Positions 2,790-10,251 of a stretch of DNA of 64,000 bases are shown piece by piece. Source of the stretch: Opitutales bacterium. Lineage in GTDB: Bacteria; Verrucomicrobiota; Verrucomicrobiia; Opitutales; UBA2987. The translations under genes and the position numbers were made by a program. The stretch spans positions 26,745-90,744 of the forward strand of contig JAJFLU010000024.1 in NCBI GenBank assembly GCA_021772515.1, read 5' to 3'. Below the pieces are notes generated by a model. It saw only the letters and a program-made list of their open reading frames with translations, did no database searches and was not told the origin of the DNA. Each line of letters starts with the position of its first letter. The stretch's first letter is position 1.

Positions 2790-3435
2790 ATCTTCAAATA
2801 CCACGATGACGAGGTATTCTTCCCCGTCTCTCATCTCGCAGAATTCCATGAAGCTTGCTGAACTCCCGGATTTCCTTCGCATCTACGGCAAACCCTAAAG
2901 ACATCAGATGTTTTCTCAATTCACCCGTTCTGTAACGCTCTTTCGGATTGGCTAGCAAGTAAAATAAGGCATTCAGCTTCCACTAGCTAGCTGAACCATA
3001 CGTTTCCGGCCCCAGTTGATCGACGGCTCTAGACCCCAGCAGATCTACCGCCTTAGCTATCTCTTTAAAGAACTTGGCCCGATCATGGTGAATCGCCTCC
3101 GCCATAATATCCAAACTCACCCTTTGTAGGGCAATGCTAACCTCATAGCTCTTAGCGTTGCTCATTCCTTTCTTCCACTCGTAGACGAATAGAAACGCCG
3201 TCAGGTCGATATTTCCCGCCTGAAACTGTTGCATCAGTTCTTCAATCTCGAGAAGCTTGAGACCACCGTAGGACCGATTTTGGAATCGCCAGATGTGCCG
3301 ATTTATTCCATCGACCCCCTCTTTTCCAATATGCGCTATTCAGTTCCGATGAAGGCTTGTCGATCCTACCGGATAGCACTTTAGCAAACCGCTCCCCATC
3401 TTCTGGCAGTGCTTTGCCCCGAAAATACTCTCACT
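2790..3435 (-). pseudogene. Decayed copy of the 8006..8797 unknown protein
   Basis: Minus-strand translation MQQFQAGNIDLTAFLFVYEWKK...LQRVSLDIMAEAIHHDRAKFFKEIAKAVDLLGSRAVDQLGPETYGSAS* matches MQQYQAGNIDLTAFLFVCEWKK...ETYGSASWWKLN of the intact copy. A TAG replaces a TGG (Trp) codon, homology continues downstream (gaagcttgctgaactcccgg), and the N-terminal ~50 aa are missing. Confidence 0.85.
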
Positions 3436-3994: not shown

Positions 3995-6900
3995 ATGCTG
4001 ACTCTCAATGAGATAATTTGTCTCCTGGGCTATAGCGATTCGTCCCAGTTTTTTCGCGAGAATCCTCCGGATGATCCTTATTTAAGCGGCCTGCATCAAA
4101 CAGCTACGAATGCAGCCAGCAATCTTTCACCGAAACCGGTCATCGAAGGGCTATACTACTTTGAGACTCAAGCCCCGGACTTAGACGGTGCAAATAAAAC
4201 TGGGCGCCTGCGTCCCGCCGTCTGTGTTGCAGAGGCTGCCACTAAAGACATCGCGCGACAACTCCACCGGCGGCTATGGAATCTTGGAACCGTCCCTTTC
4301 ATTATCATTCGCCTGCCCAACGAAATTCAACTTTACAGCGGTTTCAAATACGATCGTGAGCATGATGAGCCATTCAAGATTCTCCATAGCAATGACGAAA
4401 CGCAGACTTATCTAACCATTTTAAACGCTGAAACCATTGATTCAGGACGTATTTGGCGGACTCCATTAGCGGATGAATTGAGTGCTCGTGACCGGGTCGA
4501 CACTAGCCTGCTTAATAATCTGAATGCGCTTAGCAAAGTCCTGCGAAAAATAATTCACCCCGTATTGCCAGCGTCGGCAGCGCACGCTTTGATCGGTAAA
4601 TATATCTATTTGCGCTTTCTCAAGGATCGACGCATCCTGACAGATAACTGGATAAGGGACGAAGCGGGTTTGTCTTCACTGGAAGATGTTTTTGGTCGTA
4701 ACGCGTCACGTAATAAACTTCGTAAATTAGTCAATGCGCTGGAAGATAAATTTAATGGAGGCGTTTTTAAACTGGATTACACCAAAATTCAGGACAAGCA
4801 TGTTCGAATAGTCGCTTCAGTTTTCAGTGGTGATGAATTACTGTCGTCGAATCATACCCTTGTTCGCCAGCTTTCACTCAATTTTCAAATTTATCATTTT
4901 GAGTATATTCCGGTCGAATTACTTTCGTCTATTTATGAGCAGTTCCTGCACGCTGATAAAAAAGGCCGTGAGAAAGGAGCTTACTACACACCAGAGCCAT
5001 TAGCGGACTACCTGTTATTCGAAATGAATACAGTAAAACCATTACGTCCTGGTATGACTGTGTTCGATCCTGCTTGCGGCTCAGGAATCTTTCTTGTTCT
5101 GGCCTACCGTCGTCTCGTTGAGTTGAAAAAAAAGGAACTTGGTCGCAGTCTTAGGGCCGCTGAATTACGTAACATTCTCGTCGAATCAATTTTCGGTGTC
5201 GAACGGGAATCGGAAGCCTGCAATGTCGCGGCATTTAGTTTGCTTTTGGCAATGTGGCATTACATCGATCCTCCTGAGTTGGAGCGTATGCATTGGAAGT
5301 TTCAGTTTCCAAACCTGCTTGAAACTAATCTCTGCCAATCCGACTTCTTTGAACAATATACGCGATTCCGTCGGGAAGGTCGTAAATTCGACTGGGTGGT
5401 GGGTAACCCGCCATGGGTAGAGGATAAATCAGCTACGAACCCAGATAGTAATGATCAAAAGGTATTTGCTCACTGGAGATCAGAGCCGAAAAACAGAGTA
5501 CATACACCTGGAAAGAAAGTACAGCTAGGCTTTGCTTGGGAAACGCTCAATTTTGTTGCCCAGAATGGAGTTATAGGCCTCGTTATGCCTGCGCCGGATT
5601 TGTTCAACAGCGAGTCAGCAGGTTTTCGCCGGTCTTTTTTCACCGCAACAACTTTTCGACGAATCACGAATTTTGCCAATATCCGCGGATCGCTTTTTAC
5701 TCGGAAGCAAACAAGGCATAAGCATCTTGACGATGAGGGTGACAGCAGCAACGCCTCTATGCCTGCTTCTACTTGGGTTTTTCAGCCCGTTAGAGAGGAT
5801 GTGCGGGAACCGGATATTGTCCATGCGGCGCCATTGGTTGTCAATCAACACGCATTGAGCGGCCATGGGAAAAGCCATTTGTGGAGCATAACCATCTATG
5901 GTGGTGATATTTGCTATGTCCCTGCAAAGGAGGCGGCAACTGGCGAAGCACATGTTTGGAAACTTGCTCAATGGGGGACGCGACGCGACGCGTGGGCTCT
6001 TCGACGACTCAATCAACTCTATCCGACAACATTGAGCAAATACTGCGAGTCCCAAGATTGGCTAAAACCATATAAAGAAGAAAATGCCCGGCTTCAGTTT
6101 CCTGTCGAGGGTCCTCAAATTAAAAATGATCCGGGAAAGAATAACGAAAATGCGTATCTTCGAGAATACATTGGTAAAAAACGGGTCGTGGCTCAATTGC
6201 TTGGCGATGAGAAGAAACATAAGGGACAGCGTTTCACAATATCAGAAAACACGTTGGAAACGATTACTGAGAAAAACTGTTATTTTCGGCGTAAAGGTGG
6301 TTTAGAAGCATCATATCCTCCGCATCTTTATTTTTCCTATTATTGGAAAGACTTCATGATTTACTCTGATGAGTTTTTTGTCATCCCTCCCCGTCGTTTT
6401 GGTATTGCATGTCCTCCTGAAGACGCCGAAAAACTACGAGCGTTGGCAGTCTACCTTTGGAGTTCGCTTGCAGACTATTTCATTTTTTTTAATACACCGC
6501 AGTGGGGTGTCTATTCAACCAAGCGGCAGGTCAACGTATCCCAGGTTCGAAAGATTCCAGTTCCTGACTTTAGTAGTGAACAAATCTCTGTTTTGGCGAA
6601 TCTGCACAGTGAAATTGTAGCCGGGGAACTGGACCGTGTAAAAAAATTCTCGCTTGAAGCTGAAGATTCAGGTTGGGAAAAACGGCGCCAGAAACGCATC
6701 GACAAGGCAGTGTTTGCTCTCGTGAAACCGCCACATCAATTACAGATGCTCGTTGAAGATTTCATTGAATACAGGCTACCGCTTGATGAAGGTAAACGCT
6801 ACGCCAAACGGCTCTGTGGCCAACCAACCAAGAAGGAACTTTTAAGTTATGGAAAAGAACTGCGCAACGAATTGGATGTCTTTATTGAAAACGAGGTGCG

Positions 6901-7225
6901 GCACAAGATCGATTTCACGGTCAGCGAGGATTGGATTTACTGCCGAATTACACAGGAAGATCGACTGAACGCTGTGTCGGCTACCCAATTCGGATACGCA
7001 AAAGCCGACGGCGGAACAACAGCACTATTAGGAAAAATTCGTCAGCTAGCCGGGCAAGAATTATCGGGCCGGTTTTTTCTCCAGCGTGAAGTTATCATCG
7101 TCGAAACGAAGGCGCTTCACCTTTTCAAGGCTGCACGCAGGATGGACTGGACACGAGCTTCTGCGCTTTCCGATGCGGACAACCTCATTGCCCACGCGAT
7201 CGAGAAGAGTCATCAGGCCGCATGA
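3995..7225 (+). CDS. Large N6-adenine DNA methyltransferase-type restriction-modification protein
   Basis: 1076 aa. Motif I VFDPACGSGIFLVLAYRRL and motif IV FDWVVGNPPWVEDKS (NPPW), preceded by GAYYTPEPLADYLL, typical of gamma-class N6-adenine methylases of type I/IIG-like systems; long N- and C-terminal extensions. Confidence 0.88.
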   Translation: MLTLNEIICLLGYSDSSQFFRENPPDDPYLSGLHQTATNAASNLSPKPVIEGLYYFETQAPDLDGANKTGRLRPAVCVAEAATKDIARQLHRRLWNLGTVPFIIIRLPNEIQLYSGFKYDREHDEPFKILHSNDETQTYLTILNAETIDSGRIWRTPLADELSARDRVDTSLLNNLNALSKVLRKIIHPVLPASAAHALIGKYIYLRFLKDRRILTDNWIRDEAGLSSLEDVFGRNASRNKLRKLVNALEDKFNGGVFKLDYTKIQDKHVRIVASVFSGDELLSSNHTLVRQLSLNFQIYHFEYIPVELLSSIYEQFLHADKKGREKGAYYTPEPLADYLLFEMNTVKPLRPGMTVFDPACGSGIFLVLAYRRLVELKKKELGRSLRAAELRNILVESIFGVERESEACNVAAFSLLLAMWHYIDPPELERMHWKFQFPNLLETNLCQSDFFEQYTRFRREGRKFDWVVGNPPWVEDKSATNPDSNDQKVFAHWRSEPKNRVHTPGKKVQLGFAWETLNFVAQNGVIGLVMPAPDLFNSESAGFRRSFFTATTFRRITNFANIRGSLFTRKQTRHKHLDDEGDSSNASMPASTWVFQPVREDVREPDIVHAAPLVVNQHALSGHGKSHLWSITIYGGDICYVPAKEAATGEAHVWKLAQWGTRRDAWALRRLNQLYPTTLSKYCESQDWLKPYKEENARLQFPVEGPQIKNDPGKNNENAYLREYIGKKRVVAQLLGDEKKHKGQRFTISENTLETITEKNCYFRRKGGLEASYPPHLYFSYYWKDFMIYSDEFFVIPPRRFGIACPPEDAEKLRALAVYLWSSLADYFIFFNTPQWGVYSTKRQVNVSQVRKIPVPDFSSEQISVLANLHSEIVAGELDRVKKFSLEAEDSGWEKRRQKRIDKAVFALVKPPHQLQMLVEDFIEYRLPLDEGKRYAKRLCGQPTKKELLSYGKELRNELDVFIENEVRHKIDFTVSEDWIYCRITQEDRLNAVSATQFGYAKADGGTTALLGKIRQLAGQELSGRFFLQREVIIVETKALHLFKAARRMDWTRASALSDADNLIAHAIEKSHQAA

Positions 7226-7866
7226 GCAAAGCCACCGACTTACCCAGCCGTTATCGACAAGCTTTCCGTAAGAAGGTTCATAGGCTCATCGCATGGGGGT
7301 ATCAGGACGCGAAAGCAAAATGCGGCCCTAAAGAAGAGGAAGAAAGCATTACGGGGTATATTTCAGATGCGGTAGAATTGCGATTGGATGACCCTGGGAT
7401 CCCTTCTGATTACAATTCAATAGGTATCCACGAAGAAAAACCACATGGTGGAGACGGTCGTAAAGGAAAGGGGCGATATCGCATCGATATCCAGTTCAAG
7501 GATTCGAGTAGTCGGCCGCGGGCTCGGTTTAGTATCGAAGCCAAGCGACTGAAGACGGGGGGGTTCCCAATCGGAGCATACACTGGAAACGAGGGAATGG
7601 AATGCTTTCTAAATGGGTCTTATGCTAGAAACGAACCAGAGGTTGCGATGCTCGCTTACGTGCAAAATAAAGAGTTTGCCTATTGGCACAGACAATTACA
7701 TAGCAAATTCGATAATGACGCTGGATTAAAACGAACCATCAAAAGAGAACTAAAAGCCGTTGAAGTTATTCTGGAATTACCGCACGAATTGCTCAGTGAG
7801 CATAACCGGAACGGAGCCAGCGTAGTAATGATATACCATATTTTTCTCGACTGCCGTGTAGCATGA
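7222..7866 (+). CDS. Putative PD-(D/E)XK-type nuclease partner of the methyltransferase
   Basis: 214 aa; start overlaps the upstream stop by 4 nt (ATGA). Contains GRYRIDIQFKDSSSRPRARFSIEAKRLKTGG, a D...(beta)...ExK arrangement resembling restriction-nuclease active sites. Confidence 0.6.
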   Translation: MSKATDLPSRYRQAFRKKVHRLIAWGYQDAKAKCGPKEEEESITGYISDAVELRLDDPGIPSDYNSIGIHEEKPHGGDGRKGKGRYRIDIQFKDSSSRPRARFSIEAKRLKTGGFPIGAYTGNEGMECFLNGSYARNEPEVAMLAYVQNKEFAYWHRQLHSKFDNDAGLKRTIKRELKAVEVILELPHELLSEHNRNGASVVMIYHIFLDCRVA

Positions 7867-8005: not shown

Positions 8006-8797
8006 TCAGGTTTTTTTTGGAATTCGCCCCCTTCTCTCGTCGCGTTGTATACCGTGAAGCTTGCAGAACTCCCGAATCTCCTTTGCGTCCACGGCCAGCA
8101 CTAAAGACCTCAAATGTTCCCTCAATTCCCCCGTCCGGTATCGCTCCTTCGGATGACCGAGCAAGTAAAGTAAGACATTCAGCTTCCACCAGCTCGCCGA
8201 TCCATACGTTTCCGGCCCCAGTTGGCCGACGGCTTTGGACTCCAGGAGATCAATCGCCTTGGCGATCTGATTGAAAAGCCTGGCCCGGTCGCGGTGGATC
8301 GTCTCAGCCATCAAATCCAAGCTCACCCTTTGCAGGGTAAGGCTAACTTCATCGCTCTTACCGTTGGCCGCTTCTTTCTTCCACTCACAGACGAACAGAA
8401 ACGCCGTTAGGTCGATATTCCCCGCCTGATACTGTTGCATCAGTGCTTCAATCTCAGACCGCTTGAGACCGCCATAGGATTGATTCTGGAATCGTTCGAT
8501 CTGTCGATACACTCCCTCGACCCCCTTTTTCCCAATGAGATTAACTAGTTCCTTAGAAGGTTCGTCACTCTGGCCGGAGAGCACCTTGGCAAACCTATAC
8601 CCATCTTCCGGTACCGGTTTGCCCCGAAAATACTCATCAAAGAGCTTCTGAATTTCAGACGAGGTCGCATATTCCGCCTTGAGCCAATGCCTCACATGAG
8701 GAGATTTGCGGCAAAGCCTCACCAACTCCATCATGGCGGCATCCTTGTCCTCAATGGACAAAGCTTTTTGTAAACGCTCTGGAGAGAATATGGACAT
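8006..8797 (-). CDS. Uncharacterised protein, mobile-element associated (intact copy of duplicated gene)
   Basis: 263-aa ORF with a decayed paralogue at ~2790-3435; adjacent to and co-oriented with the integrase. No recognised domain. Confidence 0.65.
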   Translation of the reverse strand: MSIFSPERLQKALSIEDKDAAMMELVRLCRKSPHVRHWLKAEYATSSEIQKLFDEYFRGKPVPEDGYRFAKVLSGQSDEPSKELVNLIGKKGVEGVYRQIERFQNQSYGGLKRSEIEALMQQYQAGNIDLTAFLFVCEWKKEAANGKSDEVSLTLQRVSLDLMAETIHRDRARLFNQIAKAIDLLESKAVGQLGPETYGSASWWKLNVLLYLLGHPKERYRTGELREHLRSLVLAVDAKEIREFCKLHGIQRDERRGRIPKKT

Positions 8798-8886: not shown

Positions 8887-10251
8887 TCAGGCCACGAAGC
8901 GAGATACTATCTCGAGGATCTGCCCTTTTCTCTCTTTCCAATTTTTTGTGTTCTGCTCTTTGACCAATCGCAGAATCTCCGCCAGTTCTTCTCGTCCAAT
9001 GGTCGGCACATCCGATTGCCCCGTAATCATCAGTTGCGGCATCTTCGCTTCCAAGGCCCGTCGAAAGTCCTCTCTTCCGGGTCGAAAATAGTGCGTCAGG
9101 ACCACGTCAACGGTTCGGTGGCCGGTCACTTTTTTAATCAATTCCATTTCGACGCCAGAGAGCAAAGCCAACGTCACCCAAGTTACACGAAACGAATGAA
9201 AGTCGATCACCGAGGCTTTCTTTAATCCAACTTCCCTCTCAACATGAAGGTTTCCTCTGTGATTGGGATCTTCTTCGCTACCATTCGATTGCCGATCATA
9301 AAACCCGGCCTCTTTGAGCACTTTCCTTACGCGCCAGGTAATACCGTCCGGGTTGGAACGATACATCTTGGCAAGTTCAGGAAATACATATTCGTCGGAT
9401 GACGATGGCTGACTATTTATCTCGTCAAATAACAACGGAAACAGCGGTATATCCACCCGCTCTCCCGTTTTGGAAGTGGTTACACGCACAAATCGTGCTT
9501 TAAGGTCGGTTTCTCTTCTCTTGAGAAGGCAGCAATCGCCTTTGCGCATGGCCGTACACATGCCTGTAATAATGGCCGGACGTATAAACGCATGTTCCTT
9601 CCGTAGCACAACCTCTATAATTTCCGAAAGCTCATCGGGAGAAAACGGCCTGCGAAATACCGTATCTTCAACCTTGGTCGGTATGCCTTCAAACGGATTA
9701 TCCGTCAGGCCAGCCTTCTTTTTCAACTTCTCAAAAGTGGACCGCAAAAGGATCAACCCGTTGTTGTATGTCTTACCCGAAACGCCTCTTTTTTCTTCCG
9801 AACGCAAGAACGCCTCGGCAATGTTGCTCTGAACATCGGCCATTTCAACCGCTTTGGGAAAATTGCCACGCACAAATACAGCGAACCGCTTAAACAGCGA
9901 ATTTACTTGCGCGACATACCGCGTGCTTGGCCTGCGCTTTCTCGGAATCTTCCTCCATGCATCGAACATTTCATCCAGGATAATTGCTCCGACTTTGCTG
10001 CCGGTGCGAATCGCATGGATCTTTTGCAACAGTTCTTCCGATTGGCCCTTTTTGCGAAATTCCGTCGTCACCTCGTTTAGTTTTTGTAAAGCTCGCTCGC
10101 GAGAGCGCTCAAATGCAACATCGCCCTGGCCGCGAAGGGACTTGGGACGCTTGCCGCGAATTTCCACTCCAAGGTTGACGAATTCCCGTTTCCCATCGAT
10201 CATGGGTCTTCCGTAGAACCATTTTGCATCCTTTCTGATCTCTAGTGTCAT
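8887..10251 (-). CDS. Site-specific tyrosine recombinase / integrase
   Basis: 454 aa; catalytic-box residues in RPAIITGMCTAMRKGDCCLLKRRETD, TTSKTGERVDIPL, FHSFRVTWVTLALLSGVEMELIKKVTGHRTVDVVLTHYF (R, K, HxxR, GH, Y). Confidence 0.93.
   Translation of the reverse strand: MTLEIRKDAKWFYGRPMIDGKREFVNLGVEIRGKRPKSLRGQGDVAFERSRERALQKLNEVTTEFRKKGQSEELLQKIHAIRTGSKVGAIILDEMFDAWRKIPRKRRPSTRYVAQVNSLFKRFAVFVRGNFPKAVEMADVQSNIAEAFLRSEEKRGVSGKTYNNGLILLRSTFEKLKKKAGLTDNPFEGIPTKVEDTVFRRPFSPDELSEIIEVVLRKEHAFIRPAIITGMCTAMRKGDCCLLKRRETDLKARFVRVTTSKTGERVDIPLFPLLFDEINSQPSSSDEYVFPELAKMYRSNPDGITWRVRKVLKEAGFYDRQSNGSEEDPNHRGNLHVEREVGLKKASVIDFHSFRVTWVTLALLSGVEMELIKKVTGHRTVDVVLTHYFRPGREDFRRALEAKMPQLMITGQSDVPTIGREELAEILRLVKEQNTKNWKERKGQILEIVSRFVA

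Follow-up and report, generated by a model that had tools for sequence, protein, structure and literature searches.

Background

Type IIG restriction-modification enzymes are defined by an active N-terminal nuclease located in the same chain as the methylase (PMC3874165), and in MmeI this chain consists of nuclease (residues 1-155), helical spacer (156-300), methylase (301-620), target recognition region (621-825) and C-terminal bundle (PMC4833311). Among the Type IIG organisations listed in Table 4 of PMC3874165 none combines a gamma-class methylase and target domain with an endonuclease supplied in trans. A split Type IIG enzyme was proposed once, for the rare, non-adjacent pair HVO_A0006/HVO_A0237 of Haloferax volcanii (PMC4389544). 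Here we describe a two-gene locus, M-R, from a stretch of 64,000 nucleotides (nt) of an Opitutales bacterium (contig JAJFLU010000024.1, positions 26,745 to 90,744), hereafter called the window, in which the gene of a large N6-adenine methylase (M) is directly followed by that of a small nuclease-like protein (R). With moderate confidence we regard M-R as a restriction-modification system of two genes, for which split Type IIG-like is the simplest reading and the best description, and which probably works like a Type IIG enzyme with its nuclease in trans.

M resembles Type IIG/IIL enzymes of the MmeI, Eco57I and BpuSI families in its gamma-class N6-adenine methylase core, predicted helical spacer, nuclease-fold-like N-terminus and presumed C-terminal target recognition, the last judged from its position in M. 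Unlike in those enzymes, the N-terminal D/ExK signature of M appears lost, and the presumed nuclease is a separate protein of 214 amino acids (aa) encoded by the overlapping downstream gene. Across 43 M homologues no conserved D or ExK was found in the first ~200 aa, where a Type IIG chain has its active PD-(D/E)XK nuclease, and therefore M-R is not filed here as a Type IIG enzyme. The Haloferax volcanii pair is similar in that a ~219-aa PD-(D/E)XK protein (PD-X14-EAK) was proposed to complement a nuclease-less Type IIG-like methylase (PMC4389544). The small protein there is a rare homologue of the Type IIG N-terminus, is encoded at a distance of 231 genes and looks like a fragment (PMC4389544), whereas R forms a conserved family of its own, obligatorily adjacent to M, and M keeps a degenerate N-terminal domain.

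A previous reading of the window, made from the sequence only, had pointed to this locus as its strongest candidate for an under-described system. No description of the M-R pair was found in the literature searched, a scope outside which lay REBASE, bioRxiv and most subscription journals; the best comparison is a split Type IIG enzyme and not a free-standing novelty.

Results

Reciprocal linkage of M and R

Scanning of the genome collection with R revealed homologues in a Blastocatellia metagenome-assembled genome (L002, 47% identity) and in Anaerolineales HSG24 (L003, 36% identity), each directly behind an M homologue. A profile (A5) built from 19 R proteins was run alone against whole genomes. 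It recognised R in 16 genomes, that of the window among them, out of 388 from the window's own phylum, in 11 of 350 from the phylum of HSG24 and in 4 of 347 from that of the Blastocatellia genome. This R-only search gave 29 new loci in three phyla, with M directly 5' on the same strand in 28; in the remaining one (L063) the 5' end of R had been removed by an IS3-type transposase. The spacing of the two genes was from -4 to +12 nt in 25 of the 28 loci and exactly the -4 nt overlap in 14, and the order M-R was kept in every intact R locus examined. In the opposite direction, a plasmid search with M retrieved alphaproteobacterial and other plasmids, with R directly downstream in all window-type loci inspected (24/24), and M was detected at E≤1e-60 in 14 of the 388 own-phylum genomes, each of them also R-positive. 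Chance adjacency of both genes is ruled out by these reciprocal searches. The distances among M and among R proteins were correlated (r=0.915 over 40 pairs), a value reached in none of 5000 permutations. Judged from these comparisons, M and R are evidently inherited as one unit, and the conservation of the pair across genomes, by which the sequence-only reading had wished its proposal to be checked, was confirmed.

In five loci (L057, L062, L014, L017, L096) R is intact and M is broken into at least two open reading frames (ORFs) by a frameshift, a stop or an annotation break; these copies may be decayed, phase-variable or the result of sequencing errors. The Blastocatellia M (L002:260-440) has no ATG near its conserved N-terminus, and a CTG located a few bases behind AGGAG looks like its start codon.

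R as a probable PD-(D/E)XK protein

The motif RIDIQFK...RFSIEAKRLK occupies aa 87-111 of R. Although the median pairwise identity within the family of 48 proteins is as low as 19%, residues D89, E106, K108 and Y120 (window numbering) are invariant in all of them, while E40 and H206 are present in 47. Predicted secondary structure comprises helices 9-33 and 40-55, strands 66-72, 85-92 and 101-109, and then further helices, with E40 opening a helix, D89 on one strand and E106/K108 on the next. In this low-confidence prediction the elements follow one another as alpha-beta-beta-beta-alpha and the catalytic residues stand where they are expected, matching the feature of PD-(D/E)XK proteins, namely D...(D/E)xK on adjacent strands plus an upstream helix-borne glutamate. 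On the basis of motif, strict conservation and element order, R looks like a member of the PD-(D/E)XK superfamily.

A match to a catalogued system, which would have spoken against the earlier proposal, was also sought, and searches of Pfam, NCBIfam, PADLOC, PHROGs and PDB gave nothing convincing for R; PDB sequence searches with R itself and with 19-row and 43-row profiles were likewise negative. A match to Pfam PDDEXK_9 (E 0.0015) was seen for one R homologue; with 43 proteins scanned, this value is weak. Nothing resembling a modified-base reader domain was seen in R. In nearly all public records encountered the family is annotated as 'hypothetical protein', and once, in Paracoccus sp. TOH (WP_289896566.1; L008:7658-8368), as 'Fis family transcriptional regulator', likely a misannotation.

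Domain organisation of M

Both ORFs, their motifs and the ATGA overlap reported by the sequence-only reading are present at the coordinates which it gave. DPACGSG lies at aa 358-364 of M (5066-5086) and NPPW at aa 471-474 (5405-5416). M matches three Pfam methylase families (Table 1), its top match in PADLOC is REase_MTase_IIG (aa 89-538), and its closest PDB relative is MmeI (5hr4). With N6_Mtase at E=7e-18 and the R residues invariant in 48/48 proteins, the motifs of both genes are far beyond chance. In 43 M homologues motif I and NPP are invariant or nearly so, and the presumed target-recognition region is conserved less than the methylase core.

The N-terminal ~330 aa of M had been left by the earlier reading without any recognisable domain, a statement which can now be partly replaced. 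An AlphaFold2 (AF2) model of aa 1-324 shows helix 28-42, strands 49-57 and 72-80, helix 84-96 and strands 102-106 and 111-114; from 134 to 323 it is entirely helical. Because these alpha/beta and helical parts parallel the MmeI domains (PMC4833311), the modelled domain order of M matches the Type IIG/MmeI-like one: alpha/beta part, helical spacer, methylase, presumed target recognition and C-terminal region. The N-terminus of M thus reads, in the model, as a degenerate nuclease-like domain joined to a Type IIG/MmeI helical spacer. No conserved acidic residue, lysine or ExK was found in this domain in the alignment of 43 homologues, the conserved positions being tryptophan W95 and hydrophobic sites. 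The [ED]xK triplets present in 7 of 42 M N-termini were scattered with no common aligned site and were taken as chance.

Structure prediction of both proteins was another check proposed earlier. The predicted local distance difference test (pLDDT) score was 46 for R, modelled from 3 sequences, and 67 for the N-terminus of M; the element order of R fits the expected fold, but Foldseek gave nothing significant for either protein, its list being meaningless in the case of R. The non-significant matches of the M N-terminus include PD-(D/E)XK proteins: Holliday resolvase, Cas4 and a restriction endonuclease domain.

Nuclease in cis or in trans

More distant, lower-scoring M relatives devoid of R were found in the window's own phylum (L095), Psychrobacter (L098), Xanthomonas (L099) and Lactobacillus (L100), and all four carry an intact N-terminal D...VEAKK. 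In hhalign comparisons the D...ExK of R falls on D...VEAK of these fused enzymes (E 0.0068, probability 5.6%), and the M N-terminus on the helix-strand-strand elements that come next (E 0.028, probability 1.8%). Weak as they are, these scores agree with an apparent exclusivity, in which an M-type protein has either a nuclease in cis and no R, or a dead N-terminus and R in trans. In window-type proteins the N-terminal motif is lost and R is present, and therefore the nuclease probably acts in trans.

Upstream regulators and genomic surroundings

The start codon of R lies inside the stop codon of M (gccgcATGAgc, both genes on the same strand), and this overlap probably couples the translation of M and R. 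Upstream of M the relatives differ. A LexA-like gene with an S24 protease ends at or overlaps the M start in L068, L069, L075, L076 and L079, and by sequence in L084; just 5' of M there is a MerR-like gene in L013, L022 and L083, a Cro/CI or other helix-turn-helix (HTH) gene in L058 and L074, and a weak ribbon-helix-helix (RHH) match in L012, L018, L020, L085, L086 and L091. In the window copy no regulator ORF is present just upstream of M. Such genes suggest controlled expression of M-R in the relatives, the LexA-type ones suggesting SOS-controlled restriction-modification in those loci. Defence genes are found near some plasmid copies: TIR and SIR2 (L012), AbiH (L020), Shedu and PIN (L086).

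The location between mobile-element debris noted in the sequence-only reading is supported by two copies of an integrase-neighbour gene, decayed on the left and intact on the right, which lie 5205-5206 nt apart and have no further copies in the genome. Placement of the module between them is what would be expected for cargo of a mobile element.

Table 1 Features of the M-R locus and its flanks in the window
Feature	Position	Strand	Basis
M, 1076-aa Type IIG-like N6-adenine DNA methyltransferase	3995..7225	+	N6_Mtase 7e-18; MmeI_Mtase 1e-13; Eco57I 4e-12; PADLOC REase_MTase_IIG 1e-48; MmeI 5hr4 E 1e-12
M N-terminal alpha/beta domain, aa 28-114, presumed degenerate PD-(D/E)XK domain	4076..4336	+	AF2 pLDDT 67; weak hhalign match to the nuclease domains of fused Type IIG enzymes
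M helical spacer, aa 134-323	4394..4963	+	all-helical in AF2 model; position as MmeI spacer (PMC4833311)
Gamma-class N6-adenine methylase core, aa 308-541	4916..5617	+	Pfam PF02384
Presumed target-recognition region, about aa 576-880	5720..6634	+	position, by analogy with MmeI 621-825 (PMC4833311)
ATGA overlap of M and R (probable translational coupling)	7222..7225	+	recurrent in homologues
R, 214-aa putative PD-(D/E)XK-type nuclease family protein	7222..7866	+	48-sequence alignment, secondary structure, conserved motif
Decayed second copy of integrase-neighbour gene, left flank	2813..3430	-	internal stops; two blocks with 76-79% DNA identity
Intact 263-aa integrase-neighbour gene, right flank	8006..8797	-	ORF and DNA comparison
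Tyrosine integrase of presumed carrier element	8887..10251	-	Pfam Phage_integrase 7e-10

Discussion

Family membership, obligate pairing with co-inheritance, the catalytic signature and, in a small sample, the exclusivity of nuclease in cis or in trans emerge from the comparison of sequences, and the mechanism built on them would be as follows. M would recognise its DNA sequence via its own C-terminal target-recognition region and methylate adenine at N6. Its N-terminal nuclease-like domain would have lost the catalytic residues, and the PD-(D/E)XK active site would be provided in trans by R, translated from the overlapping cistron. Once M encounters an unmethylated site, e.g. on a phage or plasmid entering the cell, R would cut the DNA nearby in a Mg2+-dependent manner, either docked on M or recruited to it; the sites of the host would be protected by M methylation. 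The enzymatic activities, the choice of target, the contact between M and R, the role of M as the giver of specificity and the function against phages or plasmids are those parts of the scheme which we infer. The proposal of the sequence-only reading that the two genes form a modification and cleavage pair, with cleavage residing in the small protein, is favoured by the reciprocal linkage and the invariant D-ExK residues.

Foremost among the alternatives is an ordinary Type II pair (Type IIP or AhdI-like), in which M would be a solitary gamma-methylase and R an independent endonuclease finding its own site of the same sequence, and we consider it rather unlikely. The 214 aa of R are a usual size for stand-alone Type II enzymes, and Type II systems typically have R and M as separate neighbouring genes, preceded by a controller-like gene. 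AhdI-like 'Type 1 1/2' and other Type II systems also share with M-R a separate small endonuclease and a gamma-methylase. Type II endonucleases of different specificity are, however, usually unrelated, whereas the R proteins of different phyla are all homologous to one another and diverge in parallel with M, and the fused relatives have the nuclease in cis with no R. M also retains the N-terminal nuclease-like domain and the helical spacer which are absent from stand-alone methylases such as M.TaqI (PMC4833311). The AhdI-type methylase differs as well, being built of separate M and S subunits with no N-terminal nuclease-like domain (PMC3874165 and general background). Type I systems (HsdR/M/S) resemble M-R in having a gamma-methylase and a nuclease in separate subunits, but M-R has neither HsdS nor an ATP-dependent translocase, R being only a small nuclease-like protein. 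In agreement with the earlier reading, no HsdS, HsdR (helicase) or BREX companion genes were found beside M-R in the window or in annotated plasmid loci.

It is improbable that M-R is a BREX/PglX- or MADS-like system, where M would mark self DNA and R would be one effector of an exclusion other than simple cleavage, possibly requiring host factors. PglX and MAD2 are likewise large N6-adenine methylases, and their models do match M over its similar core. These matches lie mostly within the methylase core and far under the curated cut-offs (25-35 bits against 400-900 for PglX, 32 against 720 for MAD2), and no recurring PglZ, BrxL, BrxC, ATPase, helicase or MADS gene stands beside M-R, the conserved unit being the two genes alone. 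Membership in BREX, DISARM, MADS and Type I was rejected on such scores and the absent companion genes. Hardly more credible is R as an effector damaging host DNA (abortive infection) or as a modification-dependent nuclease, with M acting as a sensor or antidote instead of a specificity subunit. The LexA-like repressors with S24 protease preceding M in six loci do suggest induction by DNA damage; the regulators vary widely (MerR, HTH, RHH, none in the window), and therefore damage induction is not a core feature, while a modification-dependent nuclease is disfavoured by the lack in R of anything like a reader domain. Still less probable is that R is not a nuclease at all, but a small factor which assists M or gives it specificity, and that its conserved charged residues serve another role. 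Such a possibility gains from the failure to obtain a significant fold match, yet the E...D...ExK spacing and strict conservation, with D and ExK on adjoining predicted strands that have a helix on either side, form the PD-(D/E)XK pattern.

Several observations speak against a split Type IIG-like system. Both hhalign scores are weak (probability 2-6%), and the contrast between cis and trans is drawn from four fused examples. The AF2 model of R is too poor to confirm its fold, and the Foldseek search with the M N-terminus gave no significant match. In the best-sampled subgroup, 10 close relatives, the target-recognition region is not hypervariable; all regions diverge in step there, and no specificity swapping was seen that would assign the specificity to M over R. 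The viral contigs searched contained no R-type locus and one M without R, namely the homologue at L024:5743-8820 (IMG/VR contig), which has no R-profile match and lies beside a Dam-like methylase and a transposase near the contig end; none was found in the phage records searched.

Conclusions

As a tentative and rather doubtful extension of the split Type IIG-like reading, M-R could represent a phylum-spanning class of restriction-modification systems, in which the dead N-terminal domain of M would be both a docking platform and a licensing switch for a dedicated trans nuclease, with LexA-type (SOS) control in some lineages. If true, this class would connect the one-chain Type IIG enzymes with the multi-subunit Type I enzymes in evolution. 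Since R has no model in the libraries searched, current tools report M-R systems as Type IIG or orphan methylases. With the pair a probable defence system comes to light, which is present in about 1-4% of sampled genomes of three phyla and on many proteobacterial plasmids, and which may explain failed establishment of plasmids or phages in hosts apparently devoid of a restriction enzyme. It also offers a natural test of how recognition, methylation and cutting are coupled in Type IIG enzymes, as the cutter can be omitted or swapped.

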